Assembly: GCA_944392325.1 (NCBI GenBank)
Contig: CALXWI010000004.1
Coordinates: forward strand, 1-51,550
Direction of reading: 5' to 3'
From: an uncultured Alphaproteobacteria bacterium
Lineage (GTDB): Bacteria > Pseudomonadota > Alphaproteobacteria > RF32 > CAG-239
DNA: 51,550 nucleotides
Under the pieces are notes generated by a model. It was not told the DNA's origin. It was given only the letters and a program-made list of their open reading frames with translations, and made no database searches. Positions 14,843 to 20,774 of the stretch are shown one piece after another; positions within the stretch are counted from its first letter, which is position 1, and each line of letters starts with the position of its first letter. Made by a program: the position numbers and the translations under genes.

Positions 14843-15553
14843 ATGAAGCAATTGATTACTAAATTGGTACTGGGGTTCATTTTTTTATGGCTAATCTTAG
14901 CCTTTGAACACTATACCGACTGGGACACCGAGATTGCCGACTTGTTTTATGACCGTCCGCACAACGGCTGGCTGATTCCGCCGGAACTACACCGCCATCT
15001 TGATATATTTTTTTACAGCGGAATTAAAAAGGTGCTTATGCTTATCGGCATTTTTTGTTTTGTCCGCCTGCTGGCCTCAATCAAATACTCCGACTTGCGC
15101 GCTAACAACCGCCCTTTTCTGATTTTATTGCTCAGCATTATTTTTGTGCCGCTAGTAGTAGCCGGAGCCAAATATTTCACCAACGTATATTGTCCCTATC
15201 AACTTGATATCTATAACGGAGCCTACCCGTTTGTGCGTATTATTGACGCCTATCCGGCTGACTTCATCCAGCCCAAACCGGGGCGGTGTTTTCCGGCCGG
15301 CCACGCCACCGCAGGCTTTGCTCTAATGGCATTGTTTTATTGTTTTAAGAGTCGCCGCAACCGTTACTTTGGCTTAAGCTTAGGCATTATTGCGGGCTGG
15401 GTTGCCGGCATTTACCAAATGATGAGGGGGCAACACTTTTTATCACATACCATGTTTAGTATGGTGGCCTCGTTTATGGTTATAATGATTATTAATGCCG
15501 TTGTAAGGCGGTATGATAAATCATCAAATCAATATTTAAAAACCGCCTGTTAA
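14843..15553 (+). CDS. PAP2-family membrane phosphatase
   Basis: A 236-residue integral membrane phosphatase of the PAP2 superfamily, which typically dephosphorylates lipid phosphates (phosphatidate, undecaprenyl pyrophosphate or lipid A). The motifs are K-x6-CP (KYFTNVYCP, with C where R is usual), CFPAGHATAGF (PSGH variant with the catalytic-region His) and RGQHFLSHT (third motif). There are about five to six hydrophobic segments. The variant motif 1 resembles the PAP2 subgroup near lipid A modification enzymes, but the substrate cannot be fixed. It is a single plus-strand gene whose stop codon lies inside its terminator. Confidence 0.85.
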   Translation: MKQLITKLVLGFIFLWLILAFEHYTDWDTEIADLFYDRPHNGWLIPPELHRHLDIFFYSGIKKVLMLIGIFCFVRLLASIKYSDLRANNRPFLILLLSIIFVPLVVAGAKYFTNVYCPYQLDIYNGAYPFVRIIDAYPADFIQPKPGRCFPAGHATAGFALMALFYCFKSRRNRYFGLSLGIIAGWVAGIYQMMRGQHFLSHTMFSMVASFMVIMIINAVVRRYDKSSNQYLKTAC

Positions 15554-15583: not shown

Positions 15584-16168
15584 TTACTTTTCAGGGAAAC
15601 CCATATCCTCCAGCCAACCGGATACTCCGAAAGTGCGGCTGCCATAACCAACCCAGCCATCGCTTTTGACATTGCAACCTTTGCATTGCGCCGTCATATC
15701 GCGGATGGTGTTTTGCTCGCCACCGCCTCCGTGGGTAATAAACGGAATCACCGTTTTGCCGTTCAGATCATAACTTTCAATAAACGAGCTAACCGCCGGC
15801 GCAATCGTTCCCCACCAGTTAGGCGAGCCAATAAACACAACATCATACTGCGCCATATTGTCCACGCTGCCTTTCAGCTTGGGTCTAAAACCTTCATTAA
15901 TTTCTTTTTTGGCCTGAGCGGTAGTTTCATCATAATCCGTAGGATAAGCTTCCTCAGTCTGAATTTCAAACAAATCACCGCCGACTTGTTTATGAATCGC
16001 ATTAGCCACCTCTTTGGTGTTACCCGACCACGAATAATAAGCCACCAACACTTTCGGATTACTCAGCGCCGTAGTATTTGCGGCCTCTTGGGCCAAGGCA
16101 TTGTGGCCGAACAGGCCCATTGCCATTGACATTAAAGAACCCAAAATCAATCCTTTGCTTTTAGTCAT
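15584..16168 (-). CDS. Exported flavodoxin
   Basis: A 194-residue flavodoxin with an N-terminal Sec-type signal (MTKSKG, hydrophobic core, ALA|QE cleavage near residue 26). Flavodoxins carry electrons on FMN. The phosphate loop is YYSWSGNTKEVA (residues 44-55), followed by FIGSPNWWGTIAPAV and THGGGGEQNT near the isoalloxazine site. Flavodoxins are normally cytoplasmic, so export is notable. It follows the Tat-targeted reductase by 19 bp with its own AAAGGAG site, hence in the same MerR-controlled operon. I infer that it is the partner of the reductase in the cell envelope. Confidence 0.88.
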   Translation of the reverse strand: MTKSKGLILGSLMSMAMGLFGHNALAQEAANTTALSNPKVLVAYYSWSGNTKEVANAIHKQVGGDLFEIQTEEAYPTDYDETTAQAKKEINEGFRPKLKGSVDNMAQYDVVFIGSPNWWGTIAPAVSSFIESYDLNGKTVIPFITHGGGGEQNTIRDMTAQCKGCNVKSDGWVGYGSRTFGVSGWLEDMGFPEK

Positions 16169-16187
16169 TACTTTTCTCCTTTAACTT

Positions 16188-17426
16188 TTAGGCTTCAAAA
16201 GTTTTTGCTACTTCTTTGAGCCACTTAACAATTTCAATATGCTGCGGGCAGTGTTTTTCACAACGGTGGCACTGCACACAGGCTGATGCCTTGCCGTGCG
16301 TCTTGGCTAAATTGGCATAATACATTTTCTGCGCCGTAAACGGCTTGTTGCTAATCTCTTGTTTTTCAGCATTATAGAGTGCAAAATAACTCGGGATGGC
16401 AATTTTCATCGGGCACCATTCCACACAGTACTGACACCCCGTGCACGAAATAGCTACCGAGGCATGCAAAGTCTCAACTGCCTTTTCGATTACTTTCATT
16501 TCTTGCGCTGTCAAAGACTTAAAATTCTGCATATAAGCGGTATTATCTTCCACCTGCTCCAAGGTAGACATTCCGCTCAACACCATCATTACCCCCTCTA
16601 AGCTGGCGGCATATCTAATTGCCCAAGATGCCGGCGACATATTAGGCTCCGCCTCTTTGAACACCTTTTCCACCGCCGGAGGCAGGTTGGCAAGTGTCCC
16701 ACCCTTTACCGGCTCCATCACAATTACCGGTTTGTTGTATTTAAGGGCAATTTCATAACACCGCCGCGACTGAATACTGGCATTATCCCAGTCCACATAA
16801 TTAATTTGCAACTGCACAAATTCTACTTCCGGATGTTCCTTAAGCACTTCTTCCAACAGCTCAGGCGAATCATGGAAGGAGAACCCAATGTGCTTAACCT
16901 TCCCTTCCTTCTTTTTGTCAGCCACAAACTTAAAGCTGTCATACTTGCGGGCATTACCGATAGTATTGGCATTAACATTATGTACCAGATAATAGTCAAA
17001 ATACTCCAGACCGGTTTTTTCCAGCTGCTTATTAAAAATCTCTTCCTGTTCTTCTTTGCTTTTCAAAAAGCCGATAGGCAGCTTGCTTGCTACGGTAAAT
17101 TTATCCCGCGGATAACGCTCCACCAATGACTTGCGCAAAGCCACCTCGCTCTCATATCCCATATACATCCATGCCGTATCAAAATACGTAAACCCGCGGG
17201 CCAAGAACAAATCCACCATTTTATCAAGCGTTTTATAATCGATTGAAGTCTGGTCATCCGGATTTTTCAGCGGCAGGCGCATAAACCCAAAGCCCAGTTT
17301 ATTGGCGGTATTGACCTTAGCCTTAACGGCATCCGGCACGGCAATAGCCTCAGCCAATGTTAGTTTCGGCAAGGCCGACAACGCAAACAAAGCCAACGAG
17401 CTCATCAAAAAATCACGTCTTTTCAT
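16188..17426 (-). CDS. Tat-exported aldo/keto reductase with two 4Fe-4S clusters
   Basis: The 412-residue protein begins with a Tat signal (KRRDFLMSSLALFALS, twin arginines R3-R4). It continues as an aldo/keto reductase barrel with the catalytic set Asp/Tyr (YFDTAWMYMGY), Lys (VASKLPI) and His (YYLVHN). It ends in a ferredoxin-like domain with C-x2-C-x2-C-x3-CP (residues 328-339) and CVQCHRCEKHCP (residues 383-394). It presumably reduces carbonyl compounds using electrons relayed by Fe-S clusters. An AGAGGAG site precedes the ATG. A MerR-type promoter lies upstream, inside the end of tatC, and flavodoxin follows in the same operon. Confidence 0.9.
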   Translation of the reverse strand: MKRRDFLMSSLALFALSALPKLTLAEAIAVPDAVKAKVNTANKLGFGFMRLPLKNPDDQTSIDYKTLDKMVDLFLARGFTYFDTAWMYMGYESEVALRKSLVERYPRDKFTVASKLPIGFLKSKEEQEEIFNKQLEKTGLEYFDYYLVHNVNANTIGNARKYDSFKFVADKKKEGKVKHIGFSFHDSPELLEEVLKEHPEVEFVQLQINYVDWDNASIQSRRCYEIALKYNKPVIVMEPVKGGTLANLPPAVEKVFKEAEPNMSPASWAIRYAASLEGVMMVLSGMSTLEQVEDNTAYMQNFKSLTAQEMKVIEKAVETLHASVAISCTGCQYCVEWCPMKIAIPSYFALYNAEKQEISNKPFTAQKMYYANLAKTHGKASACVQCHRCEKHCPQHIEIVKWLKEVAKTFEA

Positions 17427-17462
17427 TACGATTCTCCTCTGTTTGAGGTTATTTACACGGCG

Positions 17463-17493
17463 AGTATAGTTTTTAGAGTATACTCTAGGTCAA
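17463..17493 (-). promoter_or_regulatory. MerR-type promoter of the reductase-flavodoxin operon
   Basis: -35 TTGACC (17488-17493) and -10 TATACT (17463-17468) are 19 bp apart, the over-long spacing typical of MerR-activated promoters. The spacer holds the perfect dyad TAGAGTATACTCTA (17474-17487). The -35 box forms part of the last tatC codons (GAC TTG ACC TAG). Confidence 0.9.
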
Positions 17494-18213
17494 GTCCTTT
17501 TTTTCGTTGTTTATACTTTTTCCGGCGCAGAACAATCCGGCTTCAAACAACAAATAAGTCGGTATCGCCAACATCAGCTGGCTGACGACATCAGGCGGGG
17601 TTAAAATCGCCGCCACGATTAAAATCGCCACAAACACATAAGGCCGCTTGCTCTTTACTCCTTCATAAGATGCTATTTCCCAGCGTATTAAAGCATACGT
17701 AATCAAGGGGAACTGGAACATCAACCCAAAGACCACCGCCAACCACAAAGCGGTTGAAATTACGTTTGATATTCCAAATACCGCCTTAATCTGCGGAGAA
17801 GCAAAGCTCACCCCAAAGTTAATAATCAGCGGCAAAATAAAAAATATGCAAAATAAAGCCCCCACCACAAACAAAAAGCTTGATAACCCGACTAATGACT
17901 TTATCAAATGCCGCTCGTTATCATATAAGGCCGGCAAGACAAAGTCCCAAATTTTGCGGGCAATGTAAGGAAAGCAGATTAACAAGTCCAACACCACTGC
18001 TACCTTAATTTGCAAAATAAACACTTCCATCGGGGAAAAATAATTCAGCTGCAAATCATGCCCGCTCAGCATCACCTTAATCAGCGCCTCCATACAATAC
18101 GGAGCCGCCAAAAACATCGGCACCAAACCAATGGCTAACGCCGCCACACATTTTAATAATGTCGAGCGCAGCGCTTCCAAATGCGCAACCAAGCTTTCGT
18201 CTTTGTCTTCCAT
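17485..18213 (-). CDS. tatC: Sec-independent protein translocase TatC
   Basis: TatC is the receptor that recognises twin-arginine signals in the inner membrane. The 242-residue protein begins with the family motif SLVAHLEALRSTLLK (about residues 7-21) and has six hydrophobic segments and the loop FCFPYIARKIWDFVLPALYDNE. ATG 18213 is chosen over the TTG codon just before it. It follows tatA by ten bases in the polyferredoxin-tatA-tatC operon. Its last codons carry the promoter of the next operon, whose first product has a Tat signal, so the translocase and a likely cargo are under the same regulator. Confidence 0.94.
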   Translation of the reverse strand: MEDKDESLVAHLEALRSTLLKCVAALAIGLVPMFLAAPYCMEALIKVMLSGHDLQLNYFSPMEVFILQIKVAVVLDLLICFPYIARKIWDFVLPALYDNERHLIKSLVGLSSFLFVVGALFCIFFILPLIINFGVSFASPQIKAVFGISNVISTALWLAVVFGLMFQFPLITYALIRWEIASYEGVKSKRPYVFVAILIVAAILTPPDVVSQLMLAIPTYLLFEAGLFCAGKSINNEKKDLT

Positions 18214-18223
18214 CAACTTCGGC

Positions 18224-18436
18224 TTACTTTTTGCTGTCTTTTTTCTCTTCCTGCTCGGCAGCTTTGGCGACCGTATCTTTCAAATCCTGCGCCTCATTTT
18301 GGAGCAGCTCTTTGGCTTTTTTGTATTCATATTGCGCCTTGCCCAAAGCCTTGGCCAATTCCGGAATACGTTTTCCACCAAACAGCAGCAAAATAACCAC
18401 TAAGATTAAAGCAATTTCCGTTAAACCTAAAGACAT
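18224..18436 (-). CDS. tatA: Sec-independent protein translocase TatA/TatE
   Basis: A 70-residue pore-forming Tat subunit: one N-terminal membrane helix ([20 protein letters not shown]), the hinge [13 protein letters not shown], an amphipathic helix and a lysine/glutamate-rich tail. No separate TatB-like gene is present here, so this may act as a minimal TatAC pair or with a TatB encoded elsewhere. A GGAGAAATAAA site precedes the start. It lies 11 bp after the polyferredoxin gene and ten bases before tatC. Confidence 0.92.
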
Positions 18437-18447
18437 TTTATTTCTCC

Positions 18448-19602
18448 TTATTTATCCAACAATCTTTGTTGCGTCACTTCCTGCATAGATATCGCTCTGA
18501 CCGGACATACATTATAGCATGCCCCACAGCCGATACACTCATCGGGGCTAATTTTGGGAAAACCGCCCTCTTCTTTTACAATAATCTGACGCGGACATTC
18601 ATGCACACACAACCCGCACTTGACGCACACATCTTCATCAACCTGCGCAATAGCTATCTGCGTACGGCGTTTTTCCTCCAAACTCAAAGTTTTAATTGCT
18701 CCGGACGGACAAACCTTCGAGCAGCGGTGGCACTTATAATTACAAAAGGCCTCACTATAATCCAAATGCACCGTCGGATGCTCGGCATCTGCTTTTTTAA
18801 TGATTTTCATAGGGCAGCGCGCCACACACAGGTTGCAGTTCAAGCAACGGTTAGCAAAATCTTCCACATTTCCGGCATTAAACTTCGGCTCAGCTTTAGG
18901 TGCTTTACCCAGTTGCAGAGCTCCGAACTTGCACACACCTTGGCACTTCATACATTTTATGCACATCTCATTGTCGACGGTCTTGTTTTTAATATCGATA
19001 CAGCCGACGGGACACTGTCTGGCGCACATACCGCAAGCCACACATTTGTCCTGATTAATATACACTTTGACCCACGCCTTTTTTGCCAATAAGCCCAGCA
19101 CAGCACCAACCGGACAAATGTTAGCACAAAACCACCGTCCCTTAAACCACACCAACACCGCCAGCAATATCAGCGCACCCAAGCCGATTGCCGCACCGGT
19201 AGCCGCTGAACCAAACAGCGTATAAGGGTCAATCCAGCGTACTACAAGAGCTGAGCCGCCGATTAATACTCCGAAGGATATCGCCGCAATAAAATATTTA
19301 TAGGGCCAATTTTTATGCATCGTATTTTTGCGCCTAAAGATTATCATCATTGCCTCTTGCAAGAGTCCTAAAGGGCACAAAACAGAGCAATACACGCGCC
19401 CAAGCACCAAAGCCAACACCATCAAGCCCAACAGCAAAATTAGCACAAACCACGAAAAATTAACCAAGCTCCGCTGCAACAACGGCACCAATTGTATATC
19501 AAAAATCTTCAACGGATAAAACCAGCCGAAGATTCCGCCAACGGCCAATACCGCGACAAGCAAGGTCAAAATTGCTCGCCCGTAACGATAAAACTTTCCC
19601 AT
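18448..19602 (-). CDS. Membrane polyferredoxin (NapH/YccM-like 4Fe-4S protein)
   Basis: The 384-residue protein has an N-terminal half with four to five membrane helices and two C-x3-CP motifs ([10 protein letters not shown] and [10 protein letters not shown]), as in NapH, NosR and YccM. The C-terminal half has about six ferredoxin-type motifs, for example [47 protein letters not shown] and [12 protein letters not shown]. Such proteins pass electrons between quinol or cytoplasmic donors and the periplasmic side. It leads an operon with tatA and tatC under a MerR-type promoter. I infer that it feeds the Tat-exported Fe-S reductase or the exported flavodoxin. Confidence 0.9.
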
Positions 19603-19635
19603 TTTTTCTCCGCAATTCTGCTATAAATTGGTTAT

Positions 19636-19666
19636 ATGATAATGTTTAGAGTATGGTCTAGGTCAA
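19636..19666 (-). promoter_or_regulatory. MerR-type promoter of the polyferredoxin-tatAC operon
   Basis: -35 TTGACC (19661-19666) and -10 TATCAT (19636-19641) are 19 bp apart. The spacer contains TAGACCATACTCTA, an imperfect copy of the dyad found at the other two promoters of this cluster. The imperfect half-site may mean weaker control. Confidence 0.85.
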
Positions 19667-19707
19667 GAGTTAAACCAATAAAATCCCCATTTTTTTATAA
19701 AAAATCC

Positions 19708-19738
19708 TTGACTTAGAGTATACTCTAGGTTTTAGACT
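19708..19738 (+). promoter_or_regulatory. MerR-type promoter of the merR-family gene
   Basis: -35 TTGACT (19708-19713) and -10 TAGACT (19733-19738) are 19 bp apart, with the perfect dyad TAGAGTATACTCTA at 19714-19727. It lies 33 bp before the regulator gene and is divergent from the polyferredoxin promoter, so the regulator probably controls itself. Confidence 0.88.
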
Positions 19739-19771
19739 AAGTCATTATCGGTTTAAGCAAAGGAACAAACT

Positions 19772-20200
19772 ATGGGATACTCCATCGGCCAAGTCGCCAA
19801 AAAAACCGGACTCAGCGTCCATACTTTAAGATACTATGAGAAAGAAGGCCTACTACCCTTTATTCGCAAAACCAGCTCCGGGCTTAGGGTCTTTTCGGAT
19901 GATGACATCAATTGGCTCGGAATGATTGAATGCCTCAAAGCAACCGGCATGCCGCTCAAAGGCATCAAACAATATATTGACTGGTACCATCAAGGAGATT
20001 CAACCCTTTCGCAAAGGCTTGCCATGTTCCAGCAACAAGAGCAAAATATTAAGGCTAAGATGCAAGAACTCAACACCAATCTGGCCAAAATTCAATATAA
20101 GATTCGCTTGTATGACGCCGCCGTAAAGCAAGGCAGCCTAGACAAAGCCCAACAAGAACCTGAGTTCAGAGCCGCCCGCCTCCGCCTCTTCGGCCATTAA
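19772..20200 (+). CDS. MerR-family transcriptional regulator (AdhR/NmlR-like)
   Basis: The 142-residue regulator has the MerR winged helix (YSIGQVAKKTGLSVHTLRYYEKEGLL, residues 3-28) followed by RVFSDDDINWL and a long dimerisation helix. MerR proteins bind the long spacer of their target promoter and activate by twisting DNA. There is no cluster of metal-binding cysteines at the C-terminus. Together with aldo/keto reductase targets this suggests the group that senses electrophiles or carbonyls (AdhR, NmlR, YraB), but the effector is unknown. Three matching promoters lie in the cluster. It is convergent with the next gene; the stop codons overlap. Confidence 0.9.
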   Translation: MGYSIGQVAKKTGLSVHTLRYYEKEGLLPFIRKTSSGLRVFSDDDINWLGMIECLKATGMPLKGIKQYIDWYHQGDSTLSQRLAMFQQQEQNIKAKMQELNTNLAKIQYKIRLYDAAVKQGSLDKAQQEPEFRAARLRLFGH

Positions 20201-20709
20201 ATCAGCTCGTTTAGCTCCGCTTGCCATCTGGCTAATTTGTCTTTATCGCGCTGGCCGGCATTTGCCGGACTGGTTGAAGGCATCTTGATACAACTTATAT
20301 TATGCGCCCTCGCCCATTCATAATTAGCACTCCGGCAAAAAGTTTCAAAAGCCTTGCCTCCGTTAAACAACAATTTTTGCAAATCCGGAGCCTCTTTGCT
20401 TAATACCGCAAAATCATTTACTTCCACGTCTTGAATATTACTGTCCAAACTACCTTTTCTGGAGCAGCGTTTCATCACATCCCACAAGCCGACACCATGG
20501 CCCAGCAACTTATCAACTTTTTTTTCATAGTCATCATCCGTACTAATATCCGCAAAAATCTGCGCCATATACTTCCAAAAATTATTCCGCGGATGAGCAT
20601 AATATTGCTGCCTGCGCAAAGACTCCTCCCCCGGCATAGACCCAATTACCATCACCCGCACTTGACGGTCTACCCTACGGCTCATACTTTCCCTAATATT
20701 TTCCGGCAT
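20197..20709 (-). CDS. DNA-deoxyinosine glycosylase (UDG superfamily)
   Basis: A member of the uracil-DNA-glycosylase superfamily, resembling the hypoxanthine/deoxyinosine glycosylase group, which removes deaminated bases from DNA. The 170-residue protein has VIGSMPGEESLRRQQYYAHPRNNFW in the N-terminal third (active-site loop) and IKMPSTSPANAG near the C-terminus (DNA-binding loop). ATG 20709 has an AAGGA site nine bases upstream; the TTG two codons earlier is too close to it. It overlaps the end of the convergent merR-family gene by four bases. Confidence 0.82.
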   Translation of the reverse strand: MPENIRESMSRRVDRQVRVMVIGSMPGEESLRRQQYYAHPRNNFWKYMAQIFADISTDDDYEKKVDKLLGHGVGLWDVMKRCSRKGSLDSNIQDVEVNDFAVLSKEAPDLQKLLFNGGKAFETFCRSANYEWARAHNISCIKMPSTSPANAGQRDKDKLARWQAELNELI

Positions 20710-20774
20710 AATCAAATTTCCTTACTTACTCTAACCAATATATTCCTCAGTTTACCCCTTAAGCAAGCAAAAAA

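Follow-up and report, generated by a model that had tools for sequence, protein, structure and literature searches.

The window analysed here is a stretch of 51,550 nucleotides from the genome of an uncultured alphaproteobacterium with relatives among gut species (GTDB lineage RF32; CAG-239; assembly GCA_944392325.1, contig CALXWI010000004.1), and between positions 15,584 and 20,200 it carries six genes that we interpret as an envelope redox module with a translocase of its own. The cluster unites a polyferredoxin (PFD), the twin-arginine translocase (Tat) genes tatA and tatC, an aldo/keto reductase (AKR) with a Tat signal, an exported flavodoxin and an NmlR-like merR gene, and it contains MerR-type operators and the sole tatC found in the source genome (1.53 Mb, 91% complete). 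We predict that the translocase acts mainly on the folded, cofactor-loaded proteins of the module, likely on induction by electrophiles, a reading to which we assign a probability of about 0.62.

All six open reading frames (ORFs) were confirmed at their places and are free of interruptions, and the Pfam search agreed with the label of each gene. As the initial annotation had proposed, the envelope redox genes and tatA/tatC adjoin one another on one strand (minus), with the regulator gene divergent on the plus strand. The minus-strand series begins with the NapH-NapG-like PFD (18448..19602, 384 aa; Fer4_5 and several Fer4 Pfam models), followed by tatA (18224..18436; Pfam TatA_B_E 58.7 bits, cut-off 21) and tatC (17485..18213; PF00902 TatC 184.1 bits, cut-off 25.1; TIGR00945 157.5 bits, cut-off 132.7), for which an ATG at 18213 is a more likely start than the listed TTG at 18216. 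It continues with the AKR gene (16188..17426), which matches the Pfam Aldo_ket_red model and C-terminal 4Fe-4S dicluster models and encodes two C-terminal 4Fe-4S motifs, and with the flavodoxin gene (15584..16168; Flavodoxin_4, Pfam E 2.5e-30). The product of the divergent gene (19772..20200) is an NmlR/AdhR-like MerR regulator with a single cysteine, Cys54; it matches Pfam MerR_1, and its best NCBIfam model is NmlR.

Synteny is conserved outside the source genome. The PFD alignment was scanned over GTDB genomes and the best 80 of 213 loci were kept; these 80 named loci come from uncultured Alphaproteobacteria and Gastranaerophilales. PFD, tatA and tatC follow one another unbroken in 75 of the 80, while the AKR is present in 50 and the flavodoxin in 54. 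Two of the five non-contiguous loci (L100, L132) end at a contig end; the other three (L117, L129, L145) do not, and their genomes hold one TatC each, located elsewhere. The AKR and TatAC are present in each of the 13 loci with Gastranaerophilales or Scatousia in the title, and the flavodoxin lies within the stretch in seven of these. Among 14 genomes searched behind Gastranaerophilales-type loci, 12 have one TatC, one has a second (G080) and one has a second that is a weak match (G093). A variant of the module without the AKR was observed in L102, L112, L136, L139, L140, L143 and L147, where MerR and an NADPH:FMN reductase-like gene are present, mostly together with a cupin gene.

The same association held across the window's family, for which 49 genomes were searched, 46 of which are at least 90% complete. 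With PFD called at E<=1e-60 and TatC over its family cut-off, TatC was detected in 28 genomes, never in two copies, and PFD in exactly the same 28 (Fisher test, 2.6e-14, kinship ignored); neither was found in the remaining 21. One genome among the positives, G065, has a fragment of TatC and a fragment of PFD with an internal stop in each, and both were scored as present. Eight genera hold both states, so the pair was probably gained or lost jointly several times. Among the 28 genomes with TatC and PFD, 22 also hold the AKR, as does 1 of the 21 others. Because the other six of the 28 have PFD and TatC and no AKR, the constant partner of the translocase is the PFD and not the reductase. In the source genome itself, one TatC match and one TatA-type match were obtained. 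A search for another tatABC set, which the initial annotation had called for, yielded no further tatC, and no tatB was found, the genome having a single TatA_B_E match; this TatA scored 52.8 bits against TIGR01411, just under the cut-off of 53.9. An ordinary housekeeping tat operon was ruled out as the principal interpretation, as TatC was never found without PFD in the 49 genomes.

The initial annotation considered an inducible Tat translocase tied to one substrate to be unusual. The tie to the redox module is borne out by the 75 contiguous loci, the co-occurrence in the family and the lone tatC; a single substrate is not, since the PFD of the relatives has an internal Tat signal and the six genomes without AKR rule this protein out as the only Tat cargo of the family. 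A precedent also exists in the TatAdCd-PhoD operon of Bacillus subtilis, described in PMC3068169, in which a minimal TatAC likewise stands beside, and is induced with, a dedicated substrate. B. subtilis, however, owns a second, constitutive translocase, whereas the TatAC of the window is the only one found; the window also differs in its MerR-type regulator and in its Fe-S/flavin redox neighbours.

The origin of the translocase was addressed with a tree of 96 TatC proteins. In this tree, 19 TatCs taken from other families of the class were set apart, at supports of 99/94 and 100/99, from the 61 module TatCs of Alphaproteobacteria and the 15 of Gastranaerophilales-type loci. The alphaproteobacterial module TatCs were nested among those of Gastranaerophilales (98/92); the tree had a midpoint root, some long rows and a bootstrap that had not fully settled. 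The simplest reading of the tree is that an ancestral TatABC was replaced by the transferred module, so that the translocase is probably borrowed.

The AKR begins with MKRRDFL...TLAEA, which reads as a Tat-type signal. The N-terminal twin arginines (RR) recur in 119 among the 120 relatives listed, the exception starting later, and 13 aligned Gastranaerophilales-type AKRs carry a lipobox in addition to the Tat signal, a second sign of export. Residues D83, Y88, K115 and H149, which we take to be the Asp-Tyr-Lys-His catalytic tetrad of AKRs, are invariant across 36 of 36 sequences, as are the eight cysteines of the clusters. Structure prediction gave the TIM barrel of the AKRs, with AKR11C1 (1ynp) as the best Foldseek match. 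By sequence, the narrow profile A2 reached no solved relative of the AKR at E<=1e-10, remote AKRs being all that was retrieved in further searches; the wider profile A3 matched AKR11C1, 1ynp, at 2.2e-16. The flavodoxin has a hydrophobic Sec-type signal, as read from its sequence (...NALAQE), with no RR, and Sec-type N-termini are found in most of the orthologues listed too.

In the window, the PFD consists of a NapH-like membrane part, with two CX3CP motifs and two clusters, followed by a four-cluster domain. Its relatives have an RR motif ahead of the last helix in 80 of 80 loci, and an internal RR is present in 119 among the 120 database relatives listed; the last helix of the relatives is moderately hydrophobic and is followed by at least three positive charges. 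The window copy is without a 42-residue in-frame stretch (near 18.87 kb) that carries both the RR motif and the last membrane helix, a gap missed in the initial annotation. The sole exception among the 120 listed, P0123 (384 aa), is one residue off the window PFD and has the same gap, which speaks against a single assembly error. The NapG-like half should therefore stay in the cytosol of the source strain, which leaves the cluster there with a single evident Tat cargo, the AKR. The route initially drawn, from a membrane PFD to the periplasm, thus fails in the window, where the PFD has no Tat-dependent helix. At the genome level, the DNA pattern for RR-x-F-L was too noisy to list Tat substrates (347 matches versus 562 for the reversed control).

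The PFD of the relatives resembles the dual Sec-Tat polyferredoxin, a NapH-NapG fusion, of Tooke et al. (PMC5449189) in its NapH part, the RR before the last helix, the positive charges and the four-cluster domain, whereas the window copy differs from it by having neither RR motif nor helix. The words 'aldo' and 'operon' do not occur in the available text of that paper, and this text accordingly describes neither linked tat genes nor a linked AKR.

NapH-type systems are thought to draw their electrons from quinol, at least sometimes (PMC8238504). In the 49 family genomes, UbiE/MenG was found in none (E<=1e-30) and UbiA-type prenyltransferases in two, with none found in the other 47; from this gene content, the family seems unable to make quinones. 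Quinol is therefore an unlikely electron source, which weakens a quinol-fed NapGH as a candidate, and a cytosolic ferredoxin or flavodoxin donor becomes more likely. Melainabacteria have likewise been reported to be without quinones and without a linked electron transport chain (PMC3787301). The module shares with the NapH-like extracytosolic electron-transfer systems of PMC8238504 a NapH-like membrane Fe-S protein beside extracytosolic redox proteins; it differs in combining the PFD with a flavodoxin and an AKR, in a family nearly without quinone markers.

For the working of the module we hypothesize that TatAC would export the AKR and, in the relatives, also the NapG-like half of the PFD behind its internal Tat signal-anchor. 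Electrons would enter the NapH-like membrane part of the PFD from a cytosolic ferredoxin or flavodoxin pool and would pass, on the outside, to the flavodoxin and to the Fe-S reductase, where they would reduce a carbonyl-like substrate. Free NAD(P)H is not expected in the periplasm, and the electrons would therefore reach the AKR via Fe-S clusters or via a cofactor bound before export.

Control of the module was read from its promoters. The dyad TAGAGTATACTCTA is exact at 17474..17487 on the minus strand, in the AKR-flavodoxin promoter (-35 TTGACC at 17493-17488, -10 TATACT at 17468-17463), and at 19714..19727 on the plus strand, in the merR promoter (-35 TTGACT, -10 TAGACT); it has two mismatches at 19647..19660 on the minus strand, in the PFD-tatAC promoter (-35 TTGACC, -10 TATCAT). 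Each copy sits inside a 19-bp spacer between readable -35 and -10 hexamers, and a spacer of this length over a dyad is typical of MerR promoters. That all three promoters share spacer and dyad, as first annotated, holds for the spacer and is slightly overstated for the dyad with its imperfect third copy. In the AKR operator the first TAG doubles as the tatC stop codon, which gives the AKR and flavodoxin genes a separate promoter where tatC ends. The two exact copies are the only ones of this 14-mer found in the genome. With up to two mismatches, three further places were found on other contigs (L165-L167), with no module gene in their short stretches.

Operators of this kind accompany the module in its relatives, where 41 distinct upstream sites gave the consensus TTGACT-TAGAGTnnACTCTAAAAAT-TATACT. 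At up to two mismatches, 48 sites are located no more than 300 bp upstream of a module gene versus 26 elsewhere, a 33-fold density, and several of the sites elsewhere precede DUF362 genes or operon heads. Upstream operators with a -10 at 19 bp are present in 42 of the 80 loci, and since the search pattern stopped before the -10, its conservation is independent evidence. All 15 regulators compared share Cys54. The same residue is required for the formaldehyde response of NmlR in H. influenzae and, as Cys52, of AdhR in B. subtilis (PMC4776306). The NmlR-like regulator may sense electrophiles, and induction of the module by them is likely. The MerR fold and the single conserved Cys54 are common to the window regulator and the NmlR/AdhR carbonyl-stress regulons (PMC4776306); unlike there, adhC-estD neighbours are missing and the operators precede envelope redox and Tat genes.

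In the relatives, nickel-pincer genes accompany the AKR: by similarity to curated examples, larB, larC and larE are all present in 33 of 50 AKR loci, and at least one of them in 34. One example each of LarB, LarC and LarE scored over the NCBIfam equivalog cut-offs. L084-L090, L125-L158 and others have larB, larC and larE in the AKR operon with metal importers that are NicO/UreH-like (by eye) or CbiM-like. No larBCE match was found among the ORFs of the window contig, which holds no DUF362 gene either. Genes for DUF362 proteins were found at L089:4369-5310 and in 12 further loci; ten of these 13 genes have a readable start, and seven of the ten carry a Tat signal; most have the same operator. 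For one DUF362 protein of these loci, the predicted fold resembles that of the nickel-pincer enzyme LarA. Its residues K179 and H196, candidate counterparts of the NPN-binding Lys and the Ni-ligand His of LarA (K184 and H200; PMC7583248), are conserved in 40 of 40 sequences, with a spacing of 17 versus 16 in LarA. Searches by sequence gave no solved DUF362 relatives, two chance matches only, and the database names of close relatives in other groups include Desulfovibrio and Zoogloeaceae.

The LarA/LarBCE system (PMC7583248, PMC11796402, PMC12611868) is alike in that the relatives' loci hold LarB, LarC and LarE, some with a DUF362 protein of predicted LarA fold; it differs in that DUF362 is shorter, mostly has a Tat signal and sits with AKR and Tat genes. 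DUF362 is unmentioned in the main texts of these three papers, and no search paired DUF362 with the nickel-pincer cofactor, so the novelty of the link is not established. As a tentative extension, which we hold to be possible without favouring it, the wider module may be an electrophile-controlled, quinone-free nickel-pincer envelope system. LarB, LarC and LarE with a nickel importer would build the cofactor in the cytosol, and TatAC would export the loaded DUF362 protein, perhaps also the AKR, fed via PFD and flavodoxin.

Other explanations of the cluster were weighed against a redox module with its own translocase. The locus could be decaying in the source strain, the PFD no longer having an anchor for its exported half and what remains being residual. 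The 42-residue in-frame gap, its presence in P0123 as a second database sequence with one other residue different, and the 21 of 49 relatives in which PFD and TatC were not found agree with decay, but all six frames are open, the AKR and TatC are 98% and 95% identical to the nearest relative and the operators are intact, which makes it rather unlikely. It is improbable that the Tat genes are a general-purpose system merely beside redox genes. Although tatC loci of Bacilli are often associated with substrate genes while serving others too (PMC3827258), TatC was found in none of the 21 genomes without PFD, with eight genera mixed in this respect, and the adjacency of PFD and tat genes is kept across two phyla.

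The direction of electron flow could also be reversed, such that oxidation of an alcohol or hydroxy acid by the exported AKR would supply electrons, which the PFD would carry inwards. AKR reactions are reversible in principle, and larBCE with a predicted LarA-like protein in the relatives' loci point to hydroxy-acid chemistry; NapH-like systems are in addition described as serving reductases or oxidases (PMC8238504). This direction is nevertheless unlikely, because NmlR-like control suggests stress and not growth on a substrate, and the UbiE/UbiA searches gave no sign of a quinone pool as electron acceptor.

Several observations weigh against our preferred interpretation, an electrophile-induced module whose translocase mainly serves its own proteins. 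The PFD of the window is without the Tat signal-anchor, and the incompleteness of the genome tempers the failure to find a second tatC. Scanned with a Tat-signal model, the genome yielded two sub-threshold places that do not coincide with any recognisable gene start, and the AKR itself was missed, so other cargo is possible. In one family genome, G079, the AKR has an intact Tat signal, yet no TatC or PFD was found. The regulator scored 99.5 bits with the NCBIfam NmlR model versus an equivalog cut-off of 175 and is therefore named NmlR-like only, and a MerR gene lies within the stretch in just 15 of the 80 loci, including one at 27% and one at 36% identity. Quinones scavenged from outside may, moreover, still serve the system.

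Two neighbouring genes border the cluster. A DNA-deoxyinosine glycosylase-like gene (20197-20715) is convergent with merR, and its end overlaps the merR stop by 4 bases. On the other side, a PAP2 / lipid A phosphatase-like gene (14843-15553) lies beside the module, and such a gene is near the module in L082 and L083 too. A literature search at the level of the titles and abstract beginnings listed found no account of the module and nothing pairing 'Gastranaerophilales' with 'twin-arginine'.

Tat is usually treated as a housekeeping system, and in the window's family it behaves as part of one redox module. The module is therefore a natural test case for the recognition needs of a minimal TatAC. 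Since it occurs in bacteria seemingly without quinones, it would need a membrane electron path with a donor other than quinol. The loci of the relatives further link Tat genes to nickel-pincer synthesis, with the Tat-signal DUF362 protein and the Fe-S AKR as candidate users of the cofactor. About 15% of surveyed genomes have larBCE without larA, and the cofactor users there are an open question (PMC11796402). If the nickel-pincer link is true, DUF362, and possibly the AKR, would be among the missing users in these genomes.

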